Shown here: positions 121 to 23,170 of the stretch, one piece after another
Numbering within the stretch: position 1 is the first letter of the stretch
How the letters are laid out: every line of letters begins with the position of its first letter
NCBI GenBank assembly: GCA_021108035.1
Contig: JAIORQ010000068.1
Location: 1 to 64,000 of the forward strand
DNA length: 64,000 nt
Direction: 5' to 3'
DNA from: Bacteroidales bacterium
Lineage (GTDB): Bacteria; Bacteroidota; Bacteroidia; Bacteroidales; JAADGE01
Made by a program: the position numbers and the translations under genes
Notes under the pieces: generated by a model
What the model was told of the DNA's origin: nothing
The model's database searches: none
Seen by the model: the letters and a program-made list of their open reading frames with translations, nothing else

Positions 121-181
121 TATTTTTGGAGTTGTATTCCAATATTATCCGATAATTTTGGAATACAACTCCAAAAATATC
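121..181 (+). promoter_or_regulatory. Long promoter palindrome upstream of the broken DUF4143 gene
   Basis: Arms of about 22 bases (atatttttggagttgtattc and its complement) are separated by about 15 bases. The right arm opens with TAATTTTG (153-160), which fits the Bacteroidota -7 consensus TAnnTTTG. A second -7-like TATCTTTG lies at 214-221. The layout resembles an operator lying over a promoter and matches the palindrome in front of the DUF4143 gene at 23181. Confidence 0.55.
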
Positions 182-661
182 CAATTTCCCTGTTTCAATA
201 AAGTTAAAAGTGTTATCTTTGTGTTAAAAGTTCTTCAAAAAAGTTTTCATATTCAAACAATTACTCCTTTTTATAAAAACCATAAAAAAGAAATTATAAA
301 AATGCCTAAACTTTATTTTAATGATAACGGTTTAAGAAATTCATTTTTAGATAATTATAATACAATTGAAAACAAAACAGATAAAGGACAACTATTAGAA
401 AATTATGTATATATCAGACTGTCTGAACTTTATTCAGACAGTAATATTCATTTTTGGAGAACTTCAACCGGAAATGAAATAGATTTTATCATAAATGAAA
501 GCAATATTTCAAGGAAAGCTTACGAAGTCAAATTTTCATCTAAAAATATCAACAAAAACAAATACAAAAAATTCAGAACCTTATATCCTGATTTTGATTT
601 TCAATTTATATCTTATAACTTTGACGAAACAGGCGTTTCAGTTCCGGTATTAAAACTTTAA
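158..661 (+). pseudogene. DUF4143 ATPase, C-terminal fragment
   Basis: From about residue 25 onward this matches the C-terminal DUF4143 domain of AAA+ ATPases of the COG1373 type: KSFHIQTITPFYKNHKKEI, then MPKLYFNDNGLRNSF, GQLLENYVY, FWRTSTGNEIDFII and YEVKFSS. The same features, including the FWRT...E(I/V)D signature, end the full ATPases at 21489 and 23181. The whole AAA+ half with Walker A and B is missing (about 250 residues), and the upstream palindrome and promoter are joined directly to the tail. The first residues of the open frame are probably former promoter DNA. The frame ends six bases before rlmH, so transcripts from the relic promoter could enter rlmH. Confidence 0.8.
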
Positions 662-667
662 CAAACC

Positions 668-1141
668 ATGAAACTATCTTTATTCTTTACAGGAAAAACA
701 TCTTCAGATTATTTGGAAAAAGGAATAGCTGAATATGAGAAAAGAATAAAGAGATATATTGAGTTTGAAATTAAGACGATTAAGGATATAAAGGCAAGTA
801 AAAGTATGCCGGTCAAAACTGTTAAAATTAAAGAAGGAGAACAAATTCTGAAACATATTAAAAATACTGATGTATTAATTTTACTTGATGAAAAAGGGAA
901 GTTACATACATCAAAAGAATTTGCTCAATATATTAATCATAAAAACAGCACAAGAGTTAAACATTTAATATTCTTAATCGGTGGTGCTTACGGTTTTTCA
1001 GAGCAAATTTATAAAAGAGCAAACGGAAAAATTTCTTTATCAAAAATGACTTTTTCGCATCAACCGATTAGATTGCTGTTTGCTGAACAATTATATCGAG
1101 CATTTACAATAATTAAAGGAGAACCTTATCATAATGAATAA
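668..1141 (+). CDS. rlmH: 23S rRNA (pseudouridine-1915-N3)-methyltransferase RlmH
   Basis: RlmH is the SPOUT-fold methyltransferase that methylates pseudouridine 1915 in helix 69 of 23S rRNA using S-adenosylmethionine. The 157-residue length is typical. Recognisable segments are VLILLDEKGK, the SAM-knot region FLIGGAYGFSEQIYKRA at about 102-118, SLSKMTFSHQPIRLLFAEQL and the terminal FTIIKGEPYH. The start ATG at 668 gives the usual MKL N-terminus. The last eight bases overlap the ATG of the sensor kinase at 1134, so the two are probably translated together. The call is secure. Confidence 0.97.
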   Translation: MKLSLFFTGKTSSDYLEKGIAEYEKRIKRYIEFEIKTIKDIKASKSMPVKTVKIKEGEQILKHIKNTDVLILLDEKGKLHTSKEFAQYINHKNSTRVKHLIFLIGGAYGFSEQIYKRANGKISLSKMTFSHQPIRLLFAEQLYRAFTIIKGEPYHNE

Positions 1142-4100
1142 AAATTATAAACACCTTACATTTTTAATAATTGCAATATTATTATTTGCTCTTTCTTATT
1201 TTATTTACAAAATTGAAAAAAGAAAAGCAACTGATTATGTTGATACAGAACTTATCGAAAAACGAATTCAGGAACTTGAAAGTGAGCTTAAAATAATTAT
1301 TTCAGAAACTGAAAAAAGCATAACAGAACATAAAGAAGAACTGAAAGAATCTTCAAACAGCATATTATTCGATATAATTGATATTAAAGCCGGAAATAAC
1401 TTCTCAATTCTTGTTTATCAAAACGATTCTCTAAAATATTGGTCAAATAATTCCGTTCCGATTCCTTATAAATATTCAGAAGCATCTTTCTCAAACAAAC
1501 GGCTTGTAAAGTTAGAAAACGGATGGTATGATATCATTAAGGAAGAAAATGAAGACTTTTTGATTGTCGGATTACTTAAAATAAAAAACGGCTTCTTTTA
1601 TGAAAACCAACACTTAAACCGCGACTATACACTTGGTATTAATATACCTTCAACATATGTCATTTCTGAAAAACCAATATCAATAGGGGTTGATATAAAA
1701 TCAGAATCAGGTGAGTATTTATTTTCATTAATACTGCCGATTGAAAACAATAATTCGGAAAATACCAAATCAGATTTACCCGCAAGTATATTTTTTCTGA
1801 GTATCGTTTTTTTACTGATTTTTTTAAGCAAACAGAATCAACATTTTTCAGAGTATAATTATTCATATTTATATTCTTCTTTAATTTCGGCAGGAGTTGT
1901 TTTTTTATTTATATTAATTATAAAATTTCAGGTAACGTATTATATTTTCAATTCAAATTCTTTTAATCAAAATATTTTCATTAATAATTTACCACTGTTA
2001 ACTATTGGAGAAATCTTTCTGTTTTCTGTTGTTTTATTGTTTATCATAAATAATTTATTCAGAATTATTCCTTTAGAAAGTCTTATTGAAAGTTTAGTTA
2101 AAAAAAGCAAATATATTCTGACAGCAATTTTTACCGGTATCATATTATTAATTTTTATATATTTTACATATATAAATAATATTGTTGAAGATATGATTGT
2201 TAAATCAGACATTTTTTTTAACATACAAAACATACTGACAATCAACATTATCAATATTACTGCACATTTAATCATTGGTATATTATATGCATCATTCCTG
2301 TTGCTTCTTGATCATTTTATCAGGTTTTCGGAAAGATTATCTACGGTCCGGCATATATTAATTTCTGTTTTATTTGCAGAGATTATTTTAATATCAACAA
2401 ATTATTTTAGAATCTGTCCGGGGAATTTATTTGAATCTCTTTCATTTTTTATTATTACAATAACAATAGTCCTTATAAGATTTTACAAACAAGAATATTC
2501 CTATTATTCAATTATTATCTTGATTTTTTTGCTTACAGTATTTACCGTAATATTTGAAAATAAACATACACAAATCAAAGAAAATTACAAGCAAGAAAAT
2601 CTGATTTCTCTACTGGCAAATGAAAGAGATGAAATGGCTGAACAATTTTTGACGGAAATAAATGAACGCTTAAATGCTGATACAGGAATCGTAAATATAC
2701 TAAGAAACATTAATGAGAATCAATATCAAATTATTTTTAATTATTTGAAACGCAAATACTTTTACGGATATTGGGAAAAGTATGATTTGGAACTTGTTCT
2801 GTGCGGAAATTCAGAATTTTACAGAGATGAAAATCAAACTGCAAATTGTGAAGGGTTTTACACTGAAGAATTTAACCAAAGCGGTGTAAAAATTGACAAT
2901 ACATCTTTTTGGCATATGAATTACAATACCGGAAAAATCACCTATACCGGTTTTGTTGATGTGCCCGATGAAATTGATAAGCGAAGCCTGATACTTTATA
3001 TAACTTTAAGTGAAAAATTAATATCAAAGTCTTTGGGTTATCCCAAACTATTGATTGATAAAAGTTCTGTAATTAAATCTGAATTTGAAGATTACTCCTA
3101 TGCAAAATATACAACCGGAGTACTGGCAGTTAAATACGGTAAATATCAATACGATTTGATTGAAAATGATTTTTCAGAATCCGATGAAAAAAAATATTTT
3201 AAAGAACTTAACGGATACAAACATCTGATATTAACAAATAAATCCGGTCAAAAGTTTATACTCAGCCGTATAATACCCCAAGTGTATGATTTGATAATTT
3301 CATTTGCATATCTGTTTGTATTGTATAATTTTCTGATTTTTATTGCGATACTAATATTCAATCACAAATTTGTGTTAAAGCGTTTAAATTTTGATTTTAA
3401 AAATCAAATCAGATTCTCAATGATTTTAATTCTGCTTATTTCTTTCTTTCTTTTTGGAGCAGGAACAATTTATTATGCCGTTAAAGAAAATAAAAGAGTA
3501 AATAATAAAGAAATGACTGATAAGGTTCAATCAGTGTTGATAGAATTAACGCATAAGTTGTATGAAGAAGATAAATTAACACCGGAATGGCATACTGATA
3601 AATATGACCATTTAGATGAATTATTAATCAAATTTTCTCAAGTATTTTTTTCAGACATAAATTTATATGATTTAAACGGAAACTTGCTTGCAACATCAAG
3701 ATCAGAAATTTTTAACAGAGGACTTACAGGAAAACAAATGAACAGTAAGGCTTTTAAAATGATGGTAATCAATAAAAAAACAGAATTTATACAAAAAGAA
3801 AACATAGGTGAATTGGAATTTTCTTCCATATATATACCCTTTAAAAATGTCAGGAACAAAATCACAGCATATATTAATTTGCCGTATTTCAGTAAAAATG
3901 ATACACTCCAAAAAAACCTGTCAAATGTTTTAATTGCTACTGTTAATTTATATGTAGTTCTTTTTCTGATTACAATCTTTTTGGCATTTTTTATATCAAC
4001 TGAAATTACTCGCCCTATCAGAATGTTACAAAGTAAGTTTAAAGCACTGCAATTGGGGAAAAAACATCAAGAAATAATTTACAATAAAAAAGATGAAATA

Positions 4101-4853
4101 GGAAATCTGGTGAATGAATATAACTTGATGGTAAGCAAATTAGAGATTAGTGCAAAGAAACTTGCAGAATCAGAGAGAGAAAGTGCATGGAGAGAAATGG
4201 CAAAACAAATTGCTCATGAAATAAAGAATCCCCTCACGCCTATGAAACTCAGCATACAATTATTACAAAAAACTTGGTACGATAATCCTGAAAACCATAA
4301 AGATTTTGAAAACAGATTAAACAATGTTTCAGAAACCTTAATAGAACAAATAAATACCTTATCAACCATAGCTTCGGAATTTTCTTCTTTTGCTAAAATG
4401 CCCAAAACTCGTAAAGAAGAAGTTGATATTGCCAAAAAACTAAAAACAGTAACAGGTCTTTTTGAGAATACAAAGAACATTGATATTACACTGAAATTAA
4501 ATAACAATGAAAATATACAAATAATTGCAGATAAAGAACAAGTATCAAGAGTATTTATAAATTTAATTAAAAACGCTGTTCAATCAATACCAAAAGACAA
4601 GAAAGGAAAAATAAATATTGAACTTACAACATATTCATCAAAAGCAAAAATAAAAATTGAAGATAACGGAAACGGAATACCTGATGATAAAAAAGAAAGG
4701 TTATTTGAACCCAGTTTTACAACAAAAACAACGGGCATGGGAATAGGTCTTGCAATTGTGAAAAACATAGTAAACAGTGCAGGCGGAGATATTTGGTTTG
4801 AGTCGGAAGAAAATATCGGAACAATATTTTATGTTGAATTTTTAAAGGTGTAA
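1134..4853 (+). CDS. NtrY-like membrane sensor histidine kinase
   Basis: This is a 1239-residue, many-pass membrane kinase. One transmembrane helix lies at about 7-28, a block of eight or so between about 215 and 475, further helices near 720-745 and 760-785, and a last one at about 930-955 followed by a HAMP region starting RPIRMLQSKF. The HisKA box is MAKQIAHEIKNPLTPMK with the phospho-acceptor at His1028, and the HATPase domain shows INLIKNAVQSIP (N box), DNGNGIPDD (G1) and TTGMGIGLAIVKN (G2). The HEIKNPLTP box and HAMP-first arrangement are those of NtrY-type kinases, but no PAS domain or NtrX-type regulator is visible. It overlaps rlmH by eight bases. No partner response regulator is adjacent, so its target is unknown. 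Confidence 0.9.
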   Translation: MNKNYKHLTFLIIAILLFALSYFIYKIEKRKATDYVDTELIEKRIQELESELKIIISETEKSITEHKEELKESSNSILFDIIDIKAGNNFSILVYQNDSLKYWSNNSVPIPYKYSEASFSNKRLVKLENGWYDIIKEENEDFLIVGLLKIKNGFFYENQHLNRDYTLGINIPSTYVISEKPISIGVDIKSESGEYLFSLILPIENNNSENTKSDLPASIFFLSIVFLLIFLSKQNQHFSEYNYSYLYSSLISAGVVFLFILIIKFQVTYYIFNSNSFNQNIFINNLPLLTIGEIFLFSVVLLFIINNLFRIIPLESLIESLVKKSKYILTAIFTGIILLIFIYFTYINNIVEDMIVKSDIFFNIQNILTINIINITAHLIIGILYASFLLLLDHFIRFSERLSTVRHILISVLFAEIILISTNYFRICPGNLFESLSFFIITITIVLIRFYKQEYSYYSIIILIFLLTVFTVIFENKHTQIKENYKQENLISLLANERDEMAEQFLTEINERLNADTGIVNILRNINENQYQIIFNYLKRKYFYGYWEKYDLELVLCGNSEFYRDENQTANCEGFYTEEFNQSGVKIDNTSFWHMNYNTGKITYTGFVDVPDEIDKRSLILYITLSEKLISKSLGYPKLLIDKSSVIKSEFEDYSYAKYTTGVLAVKYGKYQYDLIENDFSESDEKKYFKELNGYKHLILTNKSGQKFILSRIIPQVYDLIISFAYLFVLYNFLIFIAILIFNHKFVLKRLNFDFKNQIRFSMILILLISFFLFGAGTIYYAVKENKRVNNKEMTDKVQSVLIELTHKLYEEDKLTPEWHTDKYDHLDELLIKFSQVFFSDINLYDLNGNLLATSRSEIFNRGLTGKQMNSKAFKMMVINKKTEFIQKENIGELEFSSIYIPFKNVRNKITAYINLPYFSKNDTLQKNLSNVLIATVNLYVVLFLITIFLAFFISTEITRPIRMLQSKFKALQLGKKHQEIIYNKKDEIGNLVNEYNLMVSKLEISAKKLAESERESAWREMAKQIAHEIKNPLTPMKLSIQLLQKTWYDNPENHKDFENRLNNVSETLIEQINTLSTIASEFSSFAKMPKTRKEEVDIAKKLKTVTGLFENTKNIDITLKLNNNENIQIIADKEQVSRVFINLIKNAVQSIPKDKKGKINIELTTYSSKAKIKIEDNGNGIPDDKKERLFEPSFTTKTTGMGIGLAIVKNIVNSAGGDIWFESEENIGTIFYVEFLKV

Positions 4854-4948
4854 GCAACTTTTATCAAATAACTTTGGTCATAACATAAAATTATCGTATA
4901 TTTTGCGTTTCTACCAAAGAAATATTAAACTGTTTAAAATTGATAAAA

Positions 4949-5932
4949 ATGACCATAAAAACATTATACACAAGCCTACTTTTTTTAATTATTTCAATTA
5001 CTTCATTCAGTCAAAATCTTAAAGAAGTTAATACAATAATTAATGAAGAAAAAGAAATTACTACTGCTAATATTACTCCTGATAACAAATTTATTATTTG
5101 CGGATTTAAAACCGGTAAAATAATAGTTTATGAAACATTAACAGGAAAAATTGCTTATGAGCTAAACAGACATAAAGGTGAAATCTATTCAATTTCTTTT
5201 GATAAAAAGGGGAAATATTTTGTTTCAGCCTGTCTTGACAGGTCTGCTATTGTATGGAGTATAAACTCAGGAAAACAACTAAAGTCTTTTACAGAAAACG
5301 GAGATGCCGTTTGGACAGCAGAATTTACACCCGATAACAAATATATTGTAACCGGGGGGACAGACCAAGTTATAAGTGTTTGGGAATTAATTTCAACAAA
5401 AAGATACAGAACATTATGGGGGCATAAAGACAGGGTATATTCATTAAAAGTAACTAAAAAAGGAGATAAAGTTTATAGTGTTTCAGGAGACAATTCTATT
5501 AAAGTATGGGATATTTCTAAACAACTATTATTAAAAACTATTAATTCTGCACACACCAACGATATTACATCTATTGCTCTTAGTTCTGATGAAACATTCT
5601 TTGTTACAGGTGCAAAAGACAATACTGTTAAAATATGGGACTTTAATACATTTGATGAATTAGCAACAATGAGAGGTCATATGTGGCATATTAAGAAAGT
5701 TGACATCAGCCCTGATTCTAAATATATAGTAAGCAGTTCTTGGGATAATACATTTAAATTATGGAGTGTTGAAACAAAATCCGAAATAAGATCTTTTGAA
5801 TCTCATCAATTTCCTGTAATTGATGTTGCCTTCAGCAAAGACGGAAAATACTTAATTTCATGTGATGAAAATAAAGTAATTATTTGGGATACGGGAATGA
5901 ATATTAATATTGAGACTTCTGAGTCGAATTAA
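4949..5932 (+). CDS. Secreted WD40 beta-propeller protein
   Basis: Starting at ATG 4949 gives a clear signal peptide (MTIKTLYTSLLFLIISITSF then SQ). A TTG three codons upstream is the only alternative. The mature part is one propeller of about seven WD40 blades, seen as repeated endings such as SAIVWSI, QVISVWEL, NSIKVWDI, NTVKIWDF and NTFKLWSV, with GH or SH dipeptides before each blade (LWGHKDRVYSL, MRGHMWHIKKV). No enzyme domain is present. Such propellers are protein-interaction scaffolds; in Bacteroidota exported versions are common and mostly uncharacterised. It stands alone, with 95 bases to the upstream kinase and a convergent Fic gene downstream. Confidence 0.9.
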   Translation: MTIKTLYTSLLFLIISITSFSQNLKEVNTIINEEKEITTANITPDNKFIICGFKTGKIIVYETLTGKIAYELNRHKGEIYSISFDKKGKYFVSACLDRSAIVWSINSGKQLKSFTENGDAVWTAEFTPDNKYIVTGGTDQVISVWELISTKRYRTLWGHKDRVYSLKVTKKGDKVYSVSGDNSIKVWDISKQLLLKTINSAHTNDITSIALSSDETFFVTGAKDNTVKIWDFNTFDELATMRGHMWHIKKVDISPDSKYIVSSSWDNTFKLWSVETKSEIRSFESHQFPVIDVAFSKDGKYLISCDENKVIIWDTGMNINIETSESN

Positions 5933-5988
5933 GAAACAGATTGAAAGAGGTTGAAGAAGATTGAGTTTTTCAGTTCACTTCAACTTTA

Positions 5989-6792
5989 TCAATATAAGAA
6001 CATAAACCCTTGTTTATTGTTTTTGATTTTTGGCTTGTTTTTTAATATATTTATTTGAGCTTTTAAATGTTTTTTAGTTTGCTCAAACATAAAATCATAA
6101 AAAATATTAATATCTTCTTTTTTCCTTGTGTTTTCAAGTGCAGAATAATAATTAATCTTATCTTGATTATAAATAACTGAAAGCGGCAATTTATGATAAT
6201 GTTGCACATAATTCATTAACAGTCTTGACAGTCTTCCGTTACCGTCAGCAAAAGGATGTATTGAAACCATCTGAAAATGTGCATCAAAAGATAATTTGTA
6301 AATATCAATAAAATCTTTCGATTTATTAATATTTAAATTTATATAAGATATTAGTTTTCTTACATAATCAGGAACTTTTTTATAGTCAATAAATGTTCTG
6401 TTTCCTGCTCTTACTGTTAATTTTCTGTATTCACCTTTTGAAGAATCAAAATCACCTGCTATTGAAGATATTTTGCTTCCGGTATTCTTCATAATAAATT
6501 CAGATGTTTTTTTAATTATTTCCTCAGAAAGCAATTCTTTACTTTTTGCAATATCTAAAATATAATTTAAAGCCGCATAATGATCTACAGCCATATAAGT
6601 ATCATTCAAAGGTTTAGAATGAGGTGTAAGTTTTTCATCGAGTAAAAGAATTGTTTCTGCTTCGGTAAGTGAAGAGCCTTCTATTGAATTAGAATGATGA
6701 ACAAGAGCATAATTATTAAATTTCTCAAAATTCAATATATGTTCTTTTGTTAAAGAAAAATACTTATCTAATATTTGAATGAATTCTTTCAT
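5989..6792 (-). CDS. Fic-domain protein AMP-transferase (class II)
   Basis: The catalytic Fic motif HPFADGNGR lies at residues 179-187, with the invariant His179, the acidic residue and the anion-binding NGR. Fic enzymes usually move AMP from ATP onto a hydroxyl side chain of a target protein. An N-terminal inhibitory motif (S/T)xxxE(G/N) is seen as SNSIEG at 34-39, whose Glu normally blocks productive ATP binding. That makes this a class II, self-inhibited Fic. At 267 residues it is a single-domain housekeeping-type Fic without export signal or fused DNA-binding domain. No antitoxin gene is adjacent, as expected when the inhibitor is intramolecular. The substrate cannot be told from sequence. 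Confidence 0.92.
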   Translation of the reverse strand: MKEFIQILDKYFSLTKEHILNFEKFNNYALVHHSNSIEGSSLTEAETILLLDEKLTPHSKPLNDTYMAVDHYAALNYILDIAKSKELLSEEIIKKTSEFIMKNTGSKISSIAGDFDSSKGEYRKLTVRAGNRTFIDYKKVPDYVRKLISYINLNINKSKDFIDIYKLSFDAHFQMVSIHPFADGNGRLSRLLMNYVQHYHKLPLSVIYNQDKINYYSALENTRKKEDINIFYDFMFEQTKKHLKAQINILKNKPKIKNNKQGFMFLY

Positions 6793-6879
6793 TGTTTATT
6801 CAGTAAAAAACTTTACTGTAAAATTACACTATAAAACTATAAAACACAAACATACAAATAAATAATGTAGTAACTAAAA

Positions 6880-6911
6880 ACAACAGAGCAAATTTAACTC
6901 TGTTGTTTTTG
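6880..6911. terminator. Bidirectional hairpin terminator
   Basis: Arms aacaacagag and ctctgttgtt close on a short A/T loop and are followed by T-runs on both strands. On the minus strand it sits 40-75 bases beyond the stop codon of the T9SS tail relic at 6954, so it probably belonged to that lost gene. Confidence 0.75.
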
Positions 6912-6953
6912 AAATTGAACCTGTTATTTAAAAATTGTTACCTGCTTGTTAAT

Positions 6954-7060
6954 TTATTGTTTAATTATCATCTCTGTTTTAATAACTGCACCATTCACAT
7001 CTTTTATTTTCAACATATATAAACCTTTTTCAATAACATCTTTAAATATGATGTCTTATA
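6954..7060 (-). pseudogene. Relic of a T9SS C-terminal sorting tail
   Basis: Minus-strand reading gives IIFKDVIEKGLYMLKIKD, NGAVIKTEMIIKQ and a stop. This is the end of a type A T9SS C-terminal sorting domain (KGLYMLKI...G....EKIIK pattern). Nothing upstream in 7061-7262 continues the protein, so only the last ~30 residues of a secreted protein remain. A closely similar tail is at 24374. Apart from this relic, 6793-7262 shows no gene. Confidence 0.7.
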
Positions 7061-7262
7061 AGAAAAAATAGATAAAGAATAAGTTGAAAATTTTTAAAAT
7101 ATACCATAAGCATGCAATATTAAACTGTGATCAAAACTAACTTTTTTACTAATTTCTTACCCAAATTCAATATATTTTATCTGAATTATATGTAGAGCTT
7201 GGGTTTTAAGCATTTATAAAGGTTTGTATTAGAAATAAATTAAAATAATAAAAGAAAGAAAA

Positions 7263-7739
7263 TTATTTATTTTCCAGAACTGCATCAATATTTAGTTTAC
7301 TGTTGTGACCGTTAGCACTCACGTGAGAACTAGAACAAACATAAGTAGTATATTTTTTAGCAATTTCATCAAGAGTAATGATTTTATCAAACTCTACCTT
7401 ACAACTCTCCTTAAAGTCATCTCCAACAGCGTAAGTTGTTTTTCCAACAACAAGTATTTTATCTATTTCGCCAGTAGCATCTGATTTAATACGAATAATT
7501 TCATAATCTTGAGAAGTAATTTCATCATCTTTCCCATAAATAGTAGTAGTATAACGAACTTGGAAAGTTTCTTTATCAACTCCAACCACTACACCTTCAT
7601 AGATTTGCTTATTAGAAACGTAAGGCCATTCTTTTGTGGTATTTGTATCTTGATTAGTAGAACCATTATTTTGAGCAGTAGCAACGCCATAGCTCATTAG
7701 TAAGCAGGCAACAATTATTGTCAAATTTTTGAGTTTCAT
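7263..7739 (-). CDS. Small secreted protein, unknown function
   Basis: I do not recognise a family. The 158-residue product begins with a signal peptide (MKLKNLTIIVACLLMSYGVA, cleavage after TAQ). The mature part is beta-rich and polar: YEGVVVGVDKETFQVRYTTT, a charged stretch with DDEITSQDYEIIRIK, then VVGKTTYAVGDDF. Two cysteines are visible in the mature chain (ESCKVEF and YVCSSSHV), which may pair after export. It is the last gene of a minus-strand series of exported proteins, but a TAnnTTTG element just upstream suggests its own promoter with a leader of only about a dozen bases. An extracytoplasmic location is the only firm inference. Confidence 0.7.
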   Translation of the reverse strand: MKLKNLTIIVACLLMSYGVATAQNNGSTNQDTNTTKEWPYVSNKQIYEGVVVGVDKETFQVRYTTTIYGKDDEITSQDYEIIRIKSDATGEIDKILVVGKTTYAVGDDFKESCKVEFDKIITLDEIAKKYTTYVCSSSHVSANGHNSKLNIDAVLENK

Positions 7740-7758
7740 ATTATTTTATTTTTGGTAT

Positions 7759-7766
7759 CAAAGATA
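7759..7766 (-). promoter_or_regulatory. -7 promoter element TATCTTTG
   Basis: On the minus strand this reads TATCTTTG, a full match to the Bacteroidota -7 consensus TAnnTTTG, 20 bases before the ATG at 7739. No clear -33 TTTG was identified. Confidence 0.5.
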
Positions 7767-7774
7767 CAATTCTT

Positions 7775-8425
7775 TTACTTTTTAAAGATGTTTAACGCAC
7801 TAAAAAACCTTCTTCTGTTGTATTCCCTCTTTTTAATTCTATAAATCCTTTTTGATTCTTCTGCTTCGGGCATATACAAAAAAGGACCTACTGTTAAGGT
7901 TCTCATCATTAGATTTTCAGAAGTAAATAAATAAAAGTCTCTATATGCTCCGGATGCTATTGCTCCCGGCTTTCTTATTAATTCCAATCTGTTTTTTTTG
8001 TCCCATACAAGACTTTGAATAAACCAAAACACTTGAATATTATCATCATATACTGAATCCACAAGGAAAGAGTTATCACCATACAAAATTTCCTTTTTGG
8101 GGTCAAAGGCTAAATGTTCATAAATTACTTTTGATCTCCATGCTTGATCAAAATCATTAAACGGTCCTATGTTAATAATGTTATTATCAAGGCTTTGATA
8201 AAGATTTTTTCTGTATTCAGACTCACTGCCGTGCAATAGTTTTCTTTTTACTTCGGGAATAATAAATGAAACATAACCTGTGCTGTCGTCTTCTACTTCC
8301 CTGATACGAATTTGAAACCAATACACAAGTCTGTTTTCATCAATACTATTAGAGAAATTTACTTGTGAACTAAGATCTGTGTATAATAGGGATAATATAA
8401 ACCCAAGCAATATAATTTTTTTCAT
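7775..8425 (-). CDS. Secreted SPOR-like repeat protein
   Basis: A 216-residue exported protein with signal peptide MKKIILLGFILSLLYTDLSS. The mature chain has two modules, each opening with a YWFQIRI or VFWFIQSL beta strand and closing with a glycine-proline-phenylalanine strand followed by a helix (NIGPFNDFDQAWRSKVIY and VGPFLYMPEAEESKRIY). The strand-helix-strand arrangement ending in (I/V)GPF plus an alanine-containing helix is that of SPOR peptidoglycan-binding repeats, but the match is weak. The gene at 8558 has the same arrangement, so the two are probable paralogues. Binding to denuded peptidoglycan is an inference only. Confidence 0.6.
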   Translation of the reverse strand: MKKIILLGFILSLLYTDLSSQVNFSNSIDENRLVYWFQIRIREVEDDSTGYVSFIIPEVKRKLLHGSESEYRKNLYQSLDNNIINIGPFNDFDQAWRSKVIYEHLAFDPKKEILYGDNSFLVDSVYDDNIQVFWFIQSLVWDKKNRLELIRKPGAIASGAYRDFYLFTSENLMMRTLTVGPFLYMPEAEESKRIYRIKKREYNRRRFFSALNIFKK

Positions 8426-16226: not shown

Positions 16227-16246
16227 AATGTTGAGTTTATTGTTAA

Positions 16247-17293
16247 TCAATTAATAGTTTCAATTCGATACATTTCAAGATAACCAAACATTCCCACAAT
16301 AAGATGTTTTTCATCCTTTGTAAATATGGTTTTAGAGTTACCGTGTTTAAATGAATGTTCAAATTCGAATATAGTTTCAGGTTTCTTTAATTTTCCTATT
16401 ACAATATTTTTTATACTTGTATAAGCAAAATAATTTTCTGAAACTGACATACCATAACAACCTTTATTTTTCTCTGCAAATATTTCTGCTTCAATAACAT
16501 TACTATCAATATTATAAATATAGCTTTTTCTCCCATTACATCGTAGTATCGCTATATTTCTTTTATTAATAGAAATATCATATATTGTATTAAGTTTAGG
16601 AGTAGTGTTTATTATTTGACCTGTAGAACAATCTACATTGCGGACAAGTTTCCCGGGATCTTGAGTCATTAAAGCATTTTTTCCATTATTATAAAAAAAG
16701 CATGCACTTGCTAATAGTTTAGCCCCTTCCCATTTGTAACTTTCTGAATTTCTTAATACTTTTTCTCCAATTTTACCGGATAAATGATAAAATCTATTGT
16801 CTCTATATAAATATTCATCATCTGCAATAAACTTATTAGAAATCGAATCATAAATTAAAAATTCTGAAAAAATTGATACATTATCATATTCTTTATAATA
16901 ATCATTAAAAATATATTCAACTTGCTTTCCTGTATTTACATTCCAAATGTAAAACGAATTATATAAACTGTTAATGAATATTAAATGTTTACTGTCTCTG
17001 CTAAAAGTAATACATCCAACATCATCTTTCCACATACCTCCATTTACAGTTTCAAGTTCTATTTTTACTAATTTCTCATTATTTATTTTGTATAATTGCC
17101 TTTTACGTGTTTTGCCGGATACTAATATTATACCTAAATATTTACCATTTGGGCTTATAGCCATTTTTCGCACATGTCCAACCTCCTTTCCCTGAAGTAA
17201 TTCAGTTTCAAATATTTTTTCTAAAGTTATTTGTCCAAGTACTGTAAAAACAGTCACAATAATTATAGATATTGTTAAAATAGTTTTTCTCAT
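16247..17293 (-). CDS. Exported beta-propeller protein
   Basis: The 348-residue product begins with a signal peptide (MRKTILTISIIIVTVFTVLG). Repeated strands such as RKMAISPNGKYLGIILVSG, VGCITFSRDSKHLIFINS, NSFYIWNVNTGKQVEYI and TIFTKDEKHLIVGMFGYLEM are degenerate WD40-type blades. It is less regular than the propeller at 4949 and lacks GH dipeptides. No catalytic motif is seen. It ends four bases into the non-preferred upstream start of the PEGA gene, and the two are probably co-transcribed. Together with that gene it may form an exported scaffold pair. Confidence 0.75.
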   Translation of the reverse strand: MRKTILTISIIIVTVFTVLGQITLEKIFETELLQGKEVGHVRKMAISPNGKYLGIILVSGKTRKRQLYKINNEKLVKIELETVNGGMWKDDVGCITFSRDSKHLIFINSLYNSFYIWNVNTGKQVEYIFNDYYKEYDNVSIFSEFLIYDSISNKFIADDEYLYRDNRFYHLSGKIGEKVLRNSESYKWEGAKLLASACFFYNNGKNALMTQDPGKLVRNVDCSTGQIINTTPKLNTIYDISINKRNIAILRCNGRKSYIYNIDSNVIEAEIFAEKNKGCYGMSVSENYFAYTSIKNIVIGKLKKPETIFEFEHSFKHGNSKTIFTKDEKHLIVGMFGYLEMYRIETIN

Positions 17294-17312
17294 AATAATT
17301 AATTATATAGTT

Positions 17313-17486
17313 TTAATAAATTATAATCGTCTCCAGCTTGTCAGCCTCATCATAAATAAATTTCATCTTCTTACCCTCTTCACTTTTCCATATTTCTTCA
17401 TTTTTCTTTCCAACGTTTAACTTAAATATTAAGCCCAATTCCGAATACTCAATTATTCTGTTTTCTATGTAAAATTTTTCATTCCA
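17313..17486 (-). pseudogene. Third, broken copy of the 19215 family
   Basis: The minus strand reads YIENRIIEYSELGLIFKLNV, then KKNEEIWKSEEGKKMKFIYD, then ADKLETIIIY and a stop. This aligns with the gene at 19215 (RENRIIEYKELGMLFKF ... VKKNEEIWKSGEGRKMKFVY ... DKLETVIIF) but lacks the ~55 residues between FKL and KKNEE. No start codon or upstream part remains. The deletion joins the two halves in frame. Confidence 0.75.
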
Positions 17487-17489
17487 GGT

Positions 17490-18239
17490 TTACATCTCAA
17501 TATATTCGAACCTCAATGTATCTGAATCTTCCGGATTTGAATGCATATAAAAAATAGCATTCATTGGCAATCCCTTTTCATCGTATGTATAATCGTAGTT
17601 ATACAATTCTGAAACATAAATATCTTGAGGAGGATATTGAGGATAAGAATAATGATATATAAATATGGCATAGCCATCTTCCGTTTCAACATCAGAACTT
17701 TGTCCTATGCAATGGTTCGGTTGATACTTCCAGTAATTAATATAATTTGGATTAATAAAAGGTTCCAAAACAGAAAGTGCATTTGTATTTGTGTCATACT
17801 TATAGATGATATTCCCGGAATATTCTCCGTCTCCGCCGTAAAAATCAATTCGTGAGAGATTATCGACTTCATAGAATAATTCTGTAATTCCTGTTATTGA
17901 ATCAGGTAGTGATTTGTAATAAGTTATTTTTATACATTTGCCTTCTTCATTATATTCATAAAGACTATTACCCCAGAATTTTTGATTATTTACGGGTTGT
18001 TGTTTTTCGATATAGAAAGTATCAACATTTCCGTTTAGATTGAAATATATTACTTTGTTGAGAACAGTATCTTGATAAATAAATTCATATTGCAAATTAT
18101 TATTCAGATAAATATACTTTGTTAAGTAGGTTGTATCTGACGATAGATTATCTTCCGAAATTATAATCTCATTTTCTTTTTTGCACGAGAATTGAAATAC
18201 AGCAATTGAAGTAATAAGAACTATAAGTACCTTTTTCAT
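17490..18239 (-). CDS. Lipoprotein, unknown function
   Basis: A 249-residue lipoprotein: MKKVLIVLITSIAVFQFSC with lipobox Cys followed by KKENE, a usual Bacteroidota surface-lipoprotein start. The mature chain is rich in Tyr and Asn and consists of repeated strands such as YIYLNNNLQYEFIYQDTVLN, KCIKITYYKS, GNIIYKYDTNTN and YDYTYDEKGLPMNAIFYMHS. This resembles the YD/RHS-like beta strands often seen in DUF4595-type lipoproteins, but I cannot assign a family firmly. It starts one base after the stop of the fragment at 18241, so it was probably translationally coupled to a full-length copy of that gene. Confidence 0.75.
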   Translation of the reverse strand: MKKVLIVLITSIAVFQFSCKKENEIIISEDNLSSDTTYLTKYIYLNNNLQYEFIYQDTVLNKVIYFNLNGNVDTFYIEKQQPVNNQKFWGNSLYEYNEEGKCIKITYYKSLPDSITGITELFYEVDNLSRIDFYGGDGEYSGNIIYKYDTNTNALSVLEPFINPNYINYWKYQPNHCIGQSSDVETEDGYAIFIYHYSYPQYPPQDIYVSELYNYDYTYDEKGLPMNAIFYMHSNPEDSDTLRFEYIEM

Positions 18240-18240
18240 A

Positions 18241-18429
18241 TCAAAATATTATAATAGTTTCTAACTTGTCAATTTCATCATAAACAAACTTCATCTTCCT
18301 ACCTTTTTTACTTTTCCAAATTTCTTCATTTTTCTTAACTTCTGAAGGTTGTATATTGCCCATTCTAAAATGAATTTGTTCTTTTTCAAGTCCGGGATAA
18401 ATGCTTTTTGATTTATCTCCTTTTATCAC
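18241..18429 (-). pseudogene. Second, N-terminally truncated copy of the 19215 family
   Basis: Its 62 residues match the last 62 of the 154-residue gene at 19215: IKGDKSKSIYPGLEKEQIHF, RMGNIQPSEVKKNEEIWKS, GRKMKFVYDEIDKLETIIIF. The first ~90 residues are absent. The apparent ATG replaces an internal Ile region of the full gene, so independent function is doubtful. The 118 bases upstream (18430-18547) show no coding sequence. Confidence 0.75.
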
Positions 18430-18547
18430 TTGGTTTATTAAATTGAAATAATTGTTACTTTAGAATTTACATCTACTGATATTTTATCCTTAATCTCAAT
18501 TTGCGACTTTGCTTACATGGTTTTTCAGCTATGTTATTCACAAATAT

Positions 18548-19096
18548 TTATTGATCAATTAAGCTTCCTTTATAATATAGTGAAATATCAACACCTCTAG
18601 GATCTTTACCATTAAATGTAATAGTATAATTGTTTTCAACCTTTGTAATACTCAATTCACCATCATAAAATTCATGATATGGTATATCATTCTCATCACC
18701 ATCCGGATGTGTTCGTCTTTCACTCATCTCGCATTCACCTATTATTCCGGCTTCTTCAACTGTATTTTCTAACCATTCAACAGCATTATATGTTCCTTGA
18801 ACATCATTCGATGCTGAAATAATATCTTCAAACCAAAATTCATGTCCTGTTCCACTCTTTCCGGAATTAGAATCATAGTTAATTGTTTTTGAATATAGAG
18901 AAATTGAAAAATAATGTAACTCTCCTGAACTTCCATCATAATCTATTATACCCCAAGACAAATCATAAATTTCTCCATTGTATTCAATTTGGTTTATTTT
19001 AACTTCTTCTTCATCTTCAATATCTTTTTTGCAATCTGAAAAAAATAACAAACTTGCTAATACTGTTAAAACTTGAATGCTTTTTTTAATTTTCAT
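18548..19096 (-). CDS. Lipoprotein, unknown function
   Basis: A 182-residue lipoprotein with MKIKKSIQVLTVLASLLFFSD followed by the lipobox Cys and KKDIEDEEE, the acidic tether typical of exported Bacteroidota lipoproteins. The mature chain is beta-rich and acidic: IEYNGEIYDLSWGIIDYDGS, HYFSISLYSKTINYD, GELSITKVENNYTITFNGKD and IS LYYKGSLI-type strands. It resembles small immunoglobulin-like lipoproteins without an assigned function. It lies downstream of the complete 19215 gene, just as the lipoprotein at 17490 lies downstream of that gene's fragment. Confidence 0.7.
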   Translation of the reverse strand: MKIKKSIQVLTVLASLLFFSDCKKDIEDEEEVKINQIEYNGEIYDLSWGIIDYDGSSGELHYFSISLYSKTINYDSNSGKSGTGHEFWFEDIISASNDVQGTYNAVEWLENTVEEAGIIGECEMSERRTHPDGDENDIPYHEFYDGELSITKVENNYTITFNGKDPRGVDISLYYKGSLIDQ

Positions 19097-19098
19097 AA

Positions 19099-19170
19099 CT
19101 AAAATTTTTTAAGATTAAGTAAAATTGCTGTAATTGTGATTACTAATAATATTAAATTTAGGTTTTTCAT
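19099..19170 (-). CDS. Possible 23-residue membrane peptide
   Basis: A minus-strand ORF with ATG at 19170 encodes MKNLNLILLVITITAILLN and a short basic end. It is almost entirely one hydrophobic helix. It sits just upstream of the lipoprotein gene at 19096 and could be a small membrane peptide or a signal-peptide relic. Its short length makes chance likely. Confidence 0.25.
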   Translation of the reverse strand: MKNLNLILLVITITAILLNLKKF

Positions 19171-19214
19171 AATTCTTTGTTTTTATAATTAAAAAATAGT
19201 TTCAATCTGTTTCA

Positions 19215-19679
19215 TTAAAATATTATCACAGTCTCCAATTTATCATCCCCTCCATAAACAAACTTCATCTTCCTGCCCTCTCCACTTTTCCAAATCTCTT
19301 CATTTTTCTTTACTTCAGAAGGTTGTATTTGTCCCATTCTAAAATGTACTTGTTGTTTATTAAGCCTGGGATAAATGCTTTTTGATTTATCTCCTTTTAT
19401 TGGTTTTTTTATGGTTATAAATGAAACAACAGGGTTTTTCTTTCCGTCATTAAAAACTTTTAGAAACTTAAAGAGCATTCCCAATTCTTTATATTCAATT
19501 ATTCTGTTTTCTCTGTCGTCAGTAACATCTGTATCAGGCTCTCCTAATTGTCTTTTTATTTCTTTTAAAGTCGTTTTTTCGTTTTCGATTCCTCCTACAC
19601 CAATAAAAGGTATTAAACTATTTATCGGTTCAATATATTTATGACTGTATTTTTGTTTTTGAAAAACTGATTTAAACAT
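19215..19679 (-). CDS. Conserved-looking 154-residue protein, complete member of a local family
   Basis: I do not recognise a family. No signal peptide is seen. The N-terminal half contains GVGGIENEKTTLKEIKRQLG, followed by EPDTD and IIEYKELGMLFKF. That helix-LGEPD-strand arrangement resembles BLIP/SmpA-like folds, where a helix with a conserved GxP turn precedes strands. The C-terminal half has IYPRLNKQQVHFRMGQIQPS and EEIWKSGEGRKMKFVYGG. Two truncated copies lie downstream at 18241 and 17313. The pattern of one intact gene plus decaying tandem copies is typical of duplicated immunity or accessory genes, but nothing shows such a role here. Confidence 0.65.
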   Translation of the reverse strand: MFKSVFQKQKYSHKYIEPINSLIPFIGVGGIENEKTTLKEIKRQLGEPDTDVTDDRENRIIEYKELGMLFKFLKVFNDGKKNPVVSFITIKKPIKGDKSKSIYPRLNKQQVHFRMGQIQPSEVKKNEEIWKSGEGRKMKFVYGGDDKLETVIIF

Positions 19680-19756
19680 ATTGAGCTTATTTAAAGGTGT
19701 TTTTAGTTATCTTCAAAACTAAATCATAACTACCTTTTAAAAAAGCAATGTTCAAT

Positions 19757-19812
19757 TTGTTTATTAAGCCCCCCGATTTTTTGATAAGCCCCCCTGTTTT
19801 TTGATTGACGGG
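19757..19812. repeat. Cassette-boundary repeat, copy 1 (with a partial tandem copy)
   Basis: The core gataagccccc(c)tgttttttgatt ... ggg is shared with 21285-21319 and 22745-22778. A partial copy (ttattaagccccccgatttt) precedes it in tandem. It stands between the minus-strand gene at 19215 and the first DUF4143 ATPase, 128 bases before its ATG. C- and G-runs could pair as a weak hairpin followed by T-rich DNA. Confidence 0.7.
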
Positions 19813-19890
19813 AAAATTCTTTTTTGGGAATTAACAAATTAATTTTTTAAATAAGGGTCACTATTTTACATTAATTGATATTTTTTGCAC

Positions 19891-19898
19891 TATCTTTG
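19891..19898 (+). promoter_or_regulatory. -7 promoter element TATCTTTG
   Basis: A full match to TAnnTTTG, 42 bases before the ATG at 19941. A near-repeat of the surrounding DNA (actatctttgttacaaa, then actatctctttattacaaa) follows 31 bases on and may be a direct-repeat operator. No long inverted repeat is seen here, unlike at the other family members. Confidence 0.5.
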
Positions 19899-19940
19899 TT
19901 ACAAATAAATATAATATTTACTATCTCTTTATTACAAAAA

Positions 19941-21284
19941 ATGATAATAGAAAGAAAAGCATACGAAATACTGCTTAGATGGAAACATCTGTCAAACAGA
20001 AAACCTTTGCTTATAAGAGGAGCAAGACAAGTCGGAAAAACTACATTAATAAGGCAGTTTGCTAAAGAATTCAGTATTTATATAGAACTAAACCTTGAAA
20101 AAGATTCGGAACGTGAATTATTCGAAATTGAAGACATTAACAAATTATTAAGTGCAGCATATATCTTAAAAGGTGTAAAACCTAAAAACAAAAGTACTTT
20201 ATTATTTATTGATGAAATTCAAGAATCTCCGAAAGCAATTCAAAAATTAAGATACTTTTATGAAGAAAAACCTGATATTTTTGTTATTGCAGCAGGTTCT
20301 TTATTAGAGTTTGCATTAAGCAAAGTTCCGGCATTTCCGGTAGGAAGAATTGATTATTTATATTTACATCCGATAAATTTTGAGGAATATCTGTCAGCAA
20401 TAAAAAATGATGAAGCAATTAAAATATTAAATACATATCCTATACCGGAGTATGCACATAAACAAATATTAAGACTGTTTCATGATTTTATTATTATCGG
20501 CGGTATGCCCGAAATTGTCAAGCAATACATTATTTCCGGAAATATTGCGACATTATCAAAAAGCTATAATAAGTTATGGCAATCTTTTAAAGATGATACA
20601 GAAAAATATGCTAAAAACAATACCAATCAAAAAATAATCAGGCATGTTATTGAAACTGCACCTTATGAAACAGACAGGATAAAATTTGAAGGTTTCGGAA
20701 ATTCTGTTTACCGTTCGCGGGAAGTCGGAGAAGCATTACGGTCATTAGATAAAGCAAAGATTATTCAACTTATTTATCCTGCAACTAACACAGAACCACC
20801 TGTAAATACTGACTTCAAAAAAAGACCGCGATTACAGTTTATTGATACCGGACTTATAAATCATGTTTTAATGTTACAAGGAGAGATGATAGCTTTAAAT
20901 GACTTTAACAACTTTTACAAAGGAAAAGTTATACAACATATGGTTTCTCAAGAACTTATGTCTGTACATGAAGAAACAGAATATAAACCTCACTTTTGGG
21001 TAAGAGAAAAGAAAGACAGTAATTCTGAAGTTGATTTAGTTTATCAATACGGAAAATACATCTTTCCGATTGAGATAAAATCAGGAAAACAGGGGCGATT
21101 AAGGTCTTTGCATCAATTTATTGAACGGACAAATCATTCGTATGCAATACGACTGTATGCAGGGAAATTCAATATTGAAAAAACAAAAACACCGGGAGGA
21201 AAAAAATATTTATTAATGAATTTACCCTATTATCTCGGCTCAAAGATTCCTGAATATATTAAATATTTTATTGAAAATTATTGA
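19941..21284 (+). CDS. AAA+ ATPase with C-terminal DUF4143 domain (A)
   Basis: ATG 19941 is preferred over an upstream TTG because it gives the family N-terminus MIIERKAYEILLRWKHLS right before the Walker A motif RGARQVGKTTLIRQF (about residue 27-41). Walker B is LLFIDEIQESPKAI, followed by AAGSLLEFAL and the VGRIDYLYLHPINFEEYL segment of the AAA_14 core. The DUF4143 domain shows KRPRLQFIDTGLINHVL, HFWVREKKDSNSEVDLVY and FPIEIKSGKQGRLRSL; the last resembles a nuclease-fold core (E...D...ExK). COG1373 ATPases of this type are widely expanded in Bacteroidota and archaea and have no agreed function. The stop abuts repeat copy 2. Confidence 0.9.
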   Translation: MIIERKAYEILLRWKHLSNRKPLLIRGARQVGKTTLIRQFAKEFSIYIELNLEKDSERELFEIEDINKLLSAAYILKGVKPKNKSTLLFIDEIQESPKAIQKLRYFYEEKPDIFVIAAGSLLEFALSKVPAFPVGRIDYLYLHPINFEEYLSAIKNDEAIKILNTYPIPEYAHKQILRLFHDFIIIGGMPEIVKQYIISGNIATLSKSYNKLWQSFKDDTEKYAKNNTNQKIIRHVIETAPYETDRIKFEGFGNSVYRSREVGEALRSLDKAKIIQLIYPATNTEPPVNTDFKKRPRLQFIDTGLINHVLMLQGEMIALNDFNNFYKGKVIQHMVSQELMSVHEETEYKPHFWVREKKDSNSEVDLVYQYGKYIFPIEIKSGKQGRLRSLHQFIERTNHSYAIRLYAGKFNIEKTKTPGGKKYLLMNLPYYLGSKIPEYIKYFIENY

Positions 21285-21319
21285 CTTTTTGATAAGCCCC
21301 CTGTTTTTTGATTAAAGGG
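21285..21319. repeat. Cassette-boundary repeat, copy 2
   Basis: It begins at the first base after the TGA of ATPase A. The shared core is gataagccccctgttttttg followed by attaaaggg. Position directly behind a stop codon would also suit a weak terminator (CCC...GGG then TTTTGTT). Confidence 0.75.
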
Positions 21320-21425
21320 TTTTGTTATTACTCCTCTTTTTCAGATACCGTTCTATCTTTTTGAGAAAATTCAAATCAGAAAACAGCAAAATTTCTTTTG
21401 TTTGTAATAAATAATAACTACATTG

Positions 21426-21491
21426 CACTTTAATTTTTATTCAATATTTATATTATTATACTTTAATTTATATTGAATATATATTAAAGTG
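21426..21491 (+). promoter_or_regulatory. Palindrome overlapping the start of ATPase B
   Basis: Arms of about 29 bases (cactttaatttttattcaat... and ...attgaatatatattaaagtg) have a few A/T mismatches and a spacer of about 8. The right arm ends on the GTG at 21489. No clean TAnnTTTG lies inside it. The place and size match the palindromes at 121 and 23131 but the sequence is different. Confidence 0.55.
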
Positions 21492-22745
21492 TATTTATGT
21501 TTTACTAATTCAGGTAAATTGTTTAAACGAAAAAAATACTACGAAATAAAGCCGTGGCTTAATACACACGATATTATTGTTATACACGGCAGCCGACAAA
21601 CCGGCAAAACTACTTTGCTGAAATTATTTATGCAGGACATTCCCGAAAACAATTTCGAATATCTTGATTTAGAAGATAGTCGTTTGTTAGAAATTTGTGA
21701 GCAAGGATATGAAAATATCATAAATTATTTGCTGCAAAAAGGTTCATTAAAACAACAAAAACGTTTTTATCTTTTAATTGATGAAATCCAATATCTTAAA
21801 AACCCGTCTTCATTGTTAAAATTGTTACATGATCATCATCCTGAAATAAAACTTATTGTAACAGGCTCGTCAAGTTTTGAAATAAAAAGTAAATTTAAAG
21901 ATTCTCTTGTCGGACGAACAATTAATTTTGAACTTTATCCGCTTGATTTTGAGGAATTTCTAATTTTTAAAAAAAGGAAATATGATTTACGTAAGCCGAT
22001 AAGTTCTAAACTTATTATTGAAGACCTGATTAAACTGTATAAAGAATATATTATTTTCGGAGGATATCCGAAAATTGTTCTTACAGAAACAATATTAATG
22101 AAAGAAAAATATTTGCAACAAATAATTGACACCTATATTAAGAGTGACATAAGAGATTTAGCAAAGATTAGGCATATTGATAAATTTAATAAATTACTTC
22201 GTGTACTTGCAAACCAAAGTGGAGAATTGCTTAATATAAATGAACTTTCAAATACTGCAAGAATAGCAAAGCAAACTGTTGAACAATACTTATTTATACT
22301 TGAAAATACATACATAATTCAACTTGTAAAGCCTTTTTCAAAAAATGTTCGTTCTGAATTATTTAAAACACCCAAAATTTTCTTTGTTGATACAGGAATA
22401 TTAAATATGTTGAATTTAAAATATTTACCAAAGGAAATAAGCGGTAATGCTTTTGAGACTTCTGTTTTTTCAGAATTTTTAAAAAACACAGAAAAAGACA
22501 GCATAAATTTTTGGAGAACACAGGATAAAAAAGAGATTGATTTTGTTATTTTACAAAAAGATACAATTTCACTTTTTGAAGTTAAAATAAATGCTCTTAA
22601 ATTTAAGAAAACGCCGATGAAATATTTTGCAAGCAAATATAATCCGCTAAATATGAATTGCATAAGTTTAACAGGTAAATTATCTGAAAATAACTTATCA
22701 ATCGGAAACATAAAACCGTGGGATTTATATACGGAATGCTTTTAG
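21489..22745 (+). CDS. AAA+ ATPase with C-terminal DUF4143 domain (B)
   Basis: The reading frame opens at GTG 21489; the family-like N-terminus (FKRKKYYEIKPWLN) starts later, at TTG 21519-21521, so the true start is uncertain. Walker A is IHGSRQTGKTTLLKLF, Walker B LLIDEIQYLKNPSS, followed by VTGSSSFEIKSKFKDSLVGR and LYPLDFEEFLIF. The linker has a winged-helix-like NELSNTARIAKQTVEQYL. The DUF4143 part shows FKTPKIFFVDTGILNML, GNAFETSVFSEFL, FWRTQDKKEIDFVI and LFEVKINALKF, with the acidic pair and ExK of a PD-(D/E)xK-like fold. Sequence identity to A and C is limited, so these are old paralogues rather than recent copies. The stop abuts repeat copy 3. Confidence 0.9.
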   Translation: MYLCFTNSGKLFKRKKYYEIKPWLNTHDIIVIHGSRQTGKTTLLKLFMQDIPENNFEYLDLEDSRLLEICEQGYENIINYLLQKGSLKQQKRFYLLIDEIQYLKNPSSLLKLLHDHHPEIKLIVTGSSSFEIKSKFKDSLVGRTINFELYPLDFEEFLIFKKRKYDLRKPISSKLIIEDLIKLYKEYIIFGGYPKIVLTETILMKEKYLQQIIDTYIKSDIRDLAKIRHIDKFNKLLRVLANQSGELLNINELSNTARIAKQTVEQYLFILENTYIIQLVKPFSKNVRSELFKTPKIFFVDTGILNMLNLKYLPKEISGNAFETSVFSEFLKNTEKDSINFWRTQDKKEIDFVILQKDTISLFEVKINALKFKKTPMKYFASKYNPLNMNCISLTGKLSENNLSIGNIKPWDLYTECF

Positions 22746-22778
22746 TTTTAATAAGCCCCCTGTTTTCTGATTGAAGGG
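22745..22778. repeat. Cassette-boundary repeat, copy 3
   Basis: It begins on the last base of the TAG of ATPase B. The core aataagccccctgttttctg followed by attgaaggg differs from copy 2 at only a few positions. The following 150 bases (22779-22928) hold no gene. Confidence 0.75.
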
Positions 22779-22928
22779 AGTTTTATTTTTTAAAAATTTG
22801 CAAGTTGTACTTAAAAGTTTTAGACTTAAAAATAAAATTAAAACTAATATTTTAAAATATTACTTTAAATTATTAGTCTTAATTCATGTCTTTGCAGTAT
22901 TATGACACAAAAAACTTATCCCGGAAAA

Positions 22929-23066
22929 TATAGCCTTAAATCCGCAAGTCATCGTATCACTACCTAAATAAACAGACAGTTAAATGCAAATCTGTTTCAC
23001 GTAAATTGAAACAGTGATACGATGACTATCAACATTTTAGATATAGACTTGCGGATTTAAGGTATA
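22929..23066. mobile_element. 138-bp nested palindromic element
   Basis: Outer arms tatagccttaaatccgcaag / cttgcggatttaaggtata (one mismatch) bound the element. Immediately inside, gtcatcgtatcact pairs with agtgatacgatgac, and the centre holds a third hairpin (ctgtttcac / gaaacag). The whole could fold into one long cruciform. There is no coding capacity. It lies 115 bases before ATPase C and looks like a MITE or other non-autonomous element. Confidence 0.6.
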
Positions 23067-23130
23067 GTAATTAATTTAGCAGACTTTATTGCAAGTTTCA
23101 ATTAATAATAAAAAAATATTACTTTTTGCG

Positions 23131-23170
23131 ATTATATTAGCCAAAAGTTATTACTTTTGGCTAATATAAT
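23131..23170 (+). promoter_or_regulatory. Perfect palindrome over the promoter of ATPase C
   Basis: Perfect 17-bp arms (attatattagccaaaag / cttttggctaatataat) flank a 6-base spacer. TACTTTTG at 23152-23159 matches the -7 consensus and straddles spacer and right arm. The ATG follows at 23181. A dimeric regulator here would block transcription, and self-control by the ATPase is possible. Confidence 0.6.

Follow-up and report, generated by a model that had tools for sequence, protein, structure and literature searches.

Gene-specific tandem palindromes at DUF4143 ATPase promoters covary with a predicted recognition helix in the encoded proteins

Why should genes of one ATPase family each carry, at the same place over the promoter, a different long inverted repeat? 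The question arises from the first 64,000 nucleotides (forward strand) of contig JAIORQ010000068.1, from a Bacteroidales bacterium of the JAADGE01 lineage (assembly GCA_021108035.1); this whole stretch is henceforth the window. A sequence-only reading had noted such repeats before three genes for DUF4143 ATPases and proposed that each ATPase, or a helix-turn-helix (HTH) in its linker, recognises its own operator, which would prevent cross-talk among paralogues. From sequence comparison and a predicted structure, we put the probability at roughly 0.85 that each DUF4143 ATPase regulates transcription of its own gene, acting through private operators in its promoter and likely as an autorepressor. 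The features at issue are as follows.

119-181: inverted repeat with 31-nt arms, 97% complementary, and a 1-nt loop; a 63-bp near-perfect palindrome
124-144 and 156-176: two operators within this palindrome, spaced by about 32 bp, before a decapitated DUF4143 gene
152-159, + strand: TAATTTTG, a Bacteroidota -7-like box (TAnnTTTG) within the palindrome, by direct reading
302-661, + strand (frame open from 158): DUF4143 remnant, C-terminal part only, without the ATPase domain and with the HTH broken
19895-19951: 33-bp direct repeat, 18 of 22 matches, no palindrome, over the promoter and start of the 19941 gene
19941-21284, + strand: AAA_14-DUF4143 ATPase gene, 447 aa; a fourth window copy, left out by the earlier reading
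21426-21491: inverted repeat with 22-nt arms, 91% complementary, and a 22-nt loop
21425-21448 and 21458-21481: 33-bp direct repeat inside that region, before the 21489 gene
21489-22745, + strand: AAA_14-DUF4143 ATPase gene; translation may in fact begin at a TTG at 21519
23131-23170: inverted repeat with 18-nt perfect arms and a 4-nt loop
23126-23143: operator O1 of the 23181 gene, TTGCGATTATATTAGCCA
23158-23175: operator O2 (TGGCTAATATAATACCGA) of that gene, which follows O1 downstream at a distance of 32 bp
23151-23158, + strand: TACTTTTG, a TAnnTTTG -7 box at the boundary of linker and O2
23181-24302, + strand: AAA_14-DUF4143 ATPase gene, 373 aa; PADLOC model PDC-S01

All three inverted repeats lie where they had been reported, and each beats chance, as none of 100 dinucleotide shuffles of its own promoter reached its score. 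The TAnnTTTG element seen inside two of them is likewise present. The family membership claimed for the genes behind them held for those at 21489 and 23181, but the copy behind the first repeat is a remnant without an HTH. The genes at 19941, 21489 and 23181 match both AAA_14 (PF13173) and DUF4143 (PF13635) above the Pfam gathering score, and all match the PADLOC PDC-S01 hidden Markov model (E values of 6e-181, 8e-86 and 2e-163, respectively). The remnant matches DUF4143 only, over profile positions 50-159. Its frame (158-661), read against the helix of intact copies, opens midway through their recognition helix; the HTH that would read the 119-181 operators is therefore gone, and the operators still lie upstream. 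Window position 1, close upstream of the remnant, is the contig start.

The large palindromes resolve into two smaller operators 32-33 bp apart. This is clear at 119-181 and before 23181, where the 23131-23170 repeat extends to 23115-23186 as 34-nt arms at 79% complementarity. At 21489 the two-site structure appears only as the 33-bp direct repeat, and the combined array score is no better than in shuffles.

Are such sites a property of the family? PF13635 has 37 matches in the genome; setting aside fragments and open reading frames below 320 aa, we surveyed 32 distinct full-length DUF4143 genes together with 192 control promoters that have free upstream DNA. An inverted repeat scoring at least 12 within -120 to +10 was found at 13 of the 32 genes and 10 of the 192 controls; the figures for a direct repeat with a 32- or 33-bp spacing and a match of 17/22 or better are 17 and 1, respectively. 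At least one of three repeat signatures lies upstream of 26 of the 32 genes, against 14 of the 192 controls (P 2e-18), so that sites are present at most promoters of the family in this genome, as the earlier proposal needed; six genes have no signature.

We then turned to homologues. Autocorrelation over 165 promoters gave a sharp peak at lag 32 (0.394, against 0.270 in segments of the same loci and 0.297 in shuffles), with weaker peaks at 33 and 64 bp. A peak is present in all four groups, three of which are small (8, 16 and 3 promoters), two of these peaking at 33. Scanning for two operators 31-33 bp apart, at a threshold reached by 0.08% of shuffles, recovered an array in 135 of 252 distinct genes, with a lag of 32 in 128 of the 135. 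The scan also held in a later-fetched set (45 of 66 genes, against 0 of 660 shuffles); this set came from 70 loci that yielded 66 new genes, two genes being dropped as duplicates and the remaining loci having no parsable new gene. In the combined set, 180 of 317 distinct homologues have at least two palindromic operators of about 20 bp. The first base of TAnnTTTG falls, in nearly all cases, between -15 and -13 or between +14 and +19 relative to an operator centre; promoter and operators are thus in one register. The window palindromes are part of a family-wide promoter architecture, with sites overlapping the gene's own promoter as in an HTH autoregulator.

Two operators of the window, searched genome-wide, are also private. 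In a pattern search of the 4.96-Mb genome, exact copies of the 23181 half-site turned up only at 23131-23146 and 23155-23170; with up to two mismatches it has 30 matches, fewer than its reversed control (52). The remnant operator occurs only at its own locus, apart from one match with three mismatches. The same palindromes before unrelated genes would have spoken against private operators, and the two tested were found only at their own promoters. An off-target regulon was considered and rejected: own-genome operators searched against 464 kb returned their own promoters and otherwise scattered matches with 2-3 mismatches.

These data bear on whether the inverted repeats could be dispersed elements of the repetitive extragenic palindrome (REP) or miniature inverted-repeat transposable element (MITE) type, or terminators, lying there by chance. 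Such elements do occur in the same region (24701-24733, with 5 genome sites, and 22915-23070, with 8 copies), and the control promoters that bear strong repeats look like terminators. The tested operators, however, are single-locus, phased to the promoter and different for each gene, and among the 80 closest named loci 30 carry an inverted repeat scoring at least 12, a score that no control segment from those loci attained (0 of 310). Chance placement is largely refuted, and we give it almost no credence.

The two dispersed elements, and a third repeat, deserve description in their own right. The element at 22915-23070 is about 125 nt of nested hairpins (AGTCATCG..CGATGACTATCA), and the seven copies elsewhere in the genome are 67-77% identical. 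For three copies a DUF4143 gene is no more than about 200 bp away (the window copy and those beside C74 L011 and C14 L008). The element is REP/MITE-like by appearance, and this proximity may be due to chance. The one at 24701-24733 is a perfect palindrome, ACCGAAGCCTTCGCTT-x-AAGCGAAGGCTTCGGT, with three exact and two one-mismatch genome sites. Direct repeats AAGCCCCC..GTTTTTTGATT stand at about 19770, 21290 and 22752, between or after the ATPase genes.

A palindrome could also act as nucleic acid structure, with a cruciform or a hairpin in the 5'-leader RNA controlling expression. The arms are indeed long and near-perfect (31 nt at 119-181), and among homologues they stay complementary though their sequences change. 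Many operators, however, recur in direct orientation at 32 bp, and the covariation of residues and bases described below points to reading by a protein; for these two reasons we reject a hairpin or RNA mechanism, to which we assign a very low probability. Transcripts usually start about 7 nt downstream of a -7 box, and with the box at the operator boundary the transcript would often be missing the left arm. A scan of 19500-25000 gave no Rfam match.

A central question is then what reads the operators. An AlphaFold2 model of the 23181 protein (mean predicted local distance difference test score, pLDDT, 90.5) places a winged HTH between the AAA_14 ATPase domain and a PD-(D/E)XK-like nuclease domain. 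The parts of the protein that matter here are encoded as follows.

23769-23915, + strand: linker winged HTH, residues 197-245 (AlphaFold2)
23853-23861, + strand: recognition triad S225-K226-D227 (covariation)
24147-24194, + strand: putative PD-(D/E)XK motif D323, E336, K338, invariant in 32 homologues

In the model the winged HTH consists of helices at 197-207, 215-222 and 226-238, together with a wing strand at 242-245; residues 225-227 sit at the start of the recognition helix (226-238), and R193 just ahead of the first HTH helix.

Half-sites vary by gene, with 75 distinct 5-nt codes among the 180 operator genes. When protein columns were ranked by the mean Z of their mutual information with operator bases, residues 227, 225 and 226 came out as the top three (this and the cross-clade tests below used 254 rows representing 252 distinct genes, with one duplicate among 136 operator rows). 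Over the 180 genes, a K at residue 227 goes with G at base -6 in 46 of 48, N with T in 46 of 47 and E with C in 29 of 35. Residue 225 pairs with base -5 (D with G, 133/138; S with C, 13/20), residue 226 with base -7 (K with G, 55/67; S with T, 19/26) and residue 193 with base -1 (R with A, 69/78). The usual contacts of such side chains are K with G, N with A:T and E or D with C, and the observed rules agree with this chemistry.

Shared ancestry was controlled by training only on sequences less than 50% (or less than 45%) identical. Base -6 was then predicted from residue 227 in 99 of 123 cases at the 50% limit (majority baseline 25), where the next best of 372 columns reached 45%, and in 95 of 104 at the 45% limit (majority 28). 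For base -5 the 50% limit does not discriminate, residue 225 giving 106/130 against a majority of 94 with other columns close; at 45% it gave 78/104 against 9. Among 87 disjoint nearest pairs, column 227 stood alone at P 8e-9 (next column, 3e-3), and column 225 led for base -5 at 5e-5. Predictions on the held-out genes were correct for base -6 in 35 of 45 (majority 16) and for base -5 in 42 of 45 (majority 39). As in an HTH autoregulator, then, recognition-helix residues specify the site, judged by covariation. As to whether codes were selected to avoid cross-talk between paralogues, pairs of copies within one genome that are at least 45% identical share the triad in 2 of 52 cases, against about 2.4 expected from between-genome rates, which speaks neither way.

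Could a separate regulator, rather than the ATPase, read each operator? Some plasmid copies do adjoin HTH genes, and it is from sequence that we infer reading by the ATPase itself. What predicts operator bases across clades, nevertheless, are neighbouring residues in the recognition helix of the ATPase itself, and for base -6 that prediction stands far above any other column, which makes an outside reader scarcely probable. Control by a small separate protein of the C-protein or antitoxin type was likewise rejected, the covarying reader domain lying inside the ATPase. The earlier proposal that the linker HTH recognises its own operator thus gains support from covariation, cross-clade and held-out prediction and single-locus operators.

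Because the arrays, the covariation, the predictions and the single-locus window operators coincide, it is very probable that each ATPase reads the promoter of its own gene, where it most likely acts as an autorepressor. We propose that the winged HTH would dimerise there on palindromes of about 20 bp with the scaffold TTT-code-RATT..AATY-code'-AAA, residue 227 reading base -6, 225 reading -5 and 226 reading -7, with 193 acting beside the dyad. At least two such sites would straddle the -7 box, lying on the same DNA face and spaced by three helical turns (32 bp), so a cooperative ATPase oligomer on the phased sites would exclude RNA polymerase and repress its own gene. Since code and operator would change together, copies would keep private addresses. 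Physical binding, dimers, repression over activation, and control by nucleotide state or an invader signal are what we infer beyond the sites and rules themselves.

Several observations weigh against this model. Of the 317 distinct genes, 137 (about 43%) fall below the array threshold. Among the intact window genes, two of three (19941 and 21489) do no better than shuffles on the combined array score and have 33-bp direct repeats only, plus the palindrome at 21489. The rules for residue 226 and base -7 (held-out 31/44, majority 21) and for residue 193 and base -1 (28/45, majority 20) are loose, and A, V, S or Q at residue 227 predict the base poorly. The protein may also activate rather than repress at its own promoter. 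Beyond Bacteroidota, 10 mainly alphaproteobacterial loci, chosen from 24 after inspection of their sequences, show 22-bp direct repeats instead of 32-bp palindromes (0.385 against 0.252), and several other proteobacterial and Thermus plasmid loci have weak repeats only.

The 22-bp repeats suggest a different geometry of the same control in proteobacterial relatives. At L291, L292, L289 and L295 they are iteron-like and lie upstream of the ATPase gene, at the promoter. The 24 plasmid or phage loci of other phyla include four with a palindrome score of at least 10 (null 0.9%), in each case over the promoter: Moraxella bovis, with TATAAT at the centre, Azotobacter and Simkania plasmids, and a phage metagenome-assembled genome, whose triad DPK carries the predicted GGATT half-site. 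Viral contigs hold 27 distant homologues; of 18 usable ones, six bear an inverted repeat whose score no more than 1 of 50 shuffles equalled, and no 32-bp period was seen. One, L380, has a palindrome with 21-nt arms from -41 to +3 of the ATPase start, without a 32-bp repeat. A search of viral contigs for phage-borne decoys with two operator patterns gave 0 matches.

The iteron resemblance raises another possibility, that the ATPase binds the operators as an assembly, parking or target site akin to an iteron, centromere or origin, and not as a transcriptional switch. Arrays repeated in tandem at a constant helical spacing (32 bp, or 22 bp in the proteobacterial set) would suit such a role, as would an AAA+/STAND-like protein (signal transduction ATPase with numerous domains) whose closest folds are archaeal ATPases, nucleotide-binding leucine-rich repeat receptors (NLRs) and ORC/Cdc6 and which has a nuclease-like domain. 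We nonetheless regard it as unlikely: the arrays lie in the promoter, locked to the -7 box, and the two window operators searched genome-wide were not found elsewhere.

The fold invites one further step beyond autorepression. A sequence search against solved structures returned nothing informative for the DUF4143 ATPase. The folds closest to the ATPase-helical-winged-helix part of the model are the archaeal ATPases 2qen (Z 15.8) and 2fna (Z 15.7), followed by the NB-ARC parts of NLRs and CED-4 (Z about 14-15). Residues of about 1-275 of the model follow the STAND/NB-ARC domain order (P-loop ATPase, helical domain, winged helix) at fold level, and D323, E336 and K338 fit by sequence the D...ExK pattern of a putative PD-(D/E)XK nuclease. 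In NB-ARC proteins the winged-helix domain is the part that senses nucleotide state. Tentatively, the protein might be an NLR-like switch whose winged helix still reads DNA and in which a resting, phased oligomer on its private array silences its own gene until an invader pulls it off, coupling sensing, derepression and a nuclease-like effector.

How does this compare with known systems? PDC-S01, a PADLOC candidate defence gene, is reported to rank fourth in commonness among prokaryotic defences and to join an ATPase to a PD-(D/E)XK member, with validation pending for most such candidates (PMC12988326). The window proteins match its models, and the proposed operator and self-regulation layer comes from the present analysis. 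A search of the literature on DUF4143, PF13635, PF13173 and PDC-S01, in which subscription journals were mostly outside coverage and sources were available in part, so that absence is no proof, found no operator or self-regulation. Wider searches returned analogues only.

Among the analogues, each known from the accessible part of its source, RepA of repABC plasmids offers by analogy a working precedent for ATPase autorepression: where several paralogous ParA-type Walker ATPases share a genome, each binds, specifically when ADP is present, to a palindromic operator of its own and represses itself (PMC4492784). RepA is a plasmid partition protein, whereas the DUF4143 ATPases have a nuclease-like domain and no sign of a partner or centromere. 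RptR, repressor of a phage defence island, similarly binds to repeats lying in tandem across the -10 box of its own defence promoter, but it is a small separate regulator with a conserved 6-bp site, unlike the private code inside the DUF4143 ATPase (PMC12255303). Of the NB-ARC (STAND) ATPases of the NLR/Apaf-1/CED-4 kind, NLRs and CED-4 align with the predicted ATPase-helical-winged-helix part. The NB-ARC of Rx1 binds DNA, in a way not described there as reading of a private operator, whereas the DUF4143 winged helix carries a readable base code (PMC4599002). For TT_P0211, a DUF4143 gene of Thermus, a fold change of 6.6 is given for the presence of a plasmid (PMC4406477), a value that would fit induction.

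If the NLR-like switch holds, the three-residue code would give each copy an independent address, letting dozens coexist in one genome, and for tens of thousands of genes the operators could be predicted from the protein. The family is reported, in the portion of the source available, among the commonest candidate prokaryotic defence genes, with a mechanism lacking (PMC12988326). A self-addressed operator with a simple residue-to-base code would be a first handle on its regulation: the code predicts binding sites from sequence and names mutations expected to switch specificity, and the finding would tie an NLR-like ATPase directly to sequence-specific reading of DNA.

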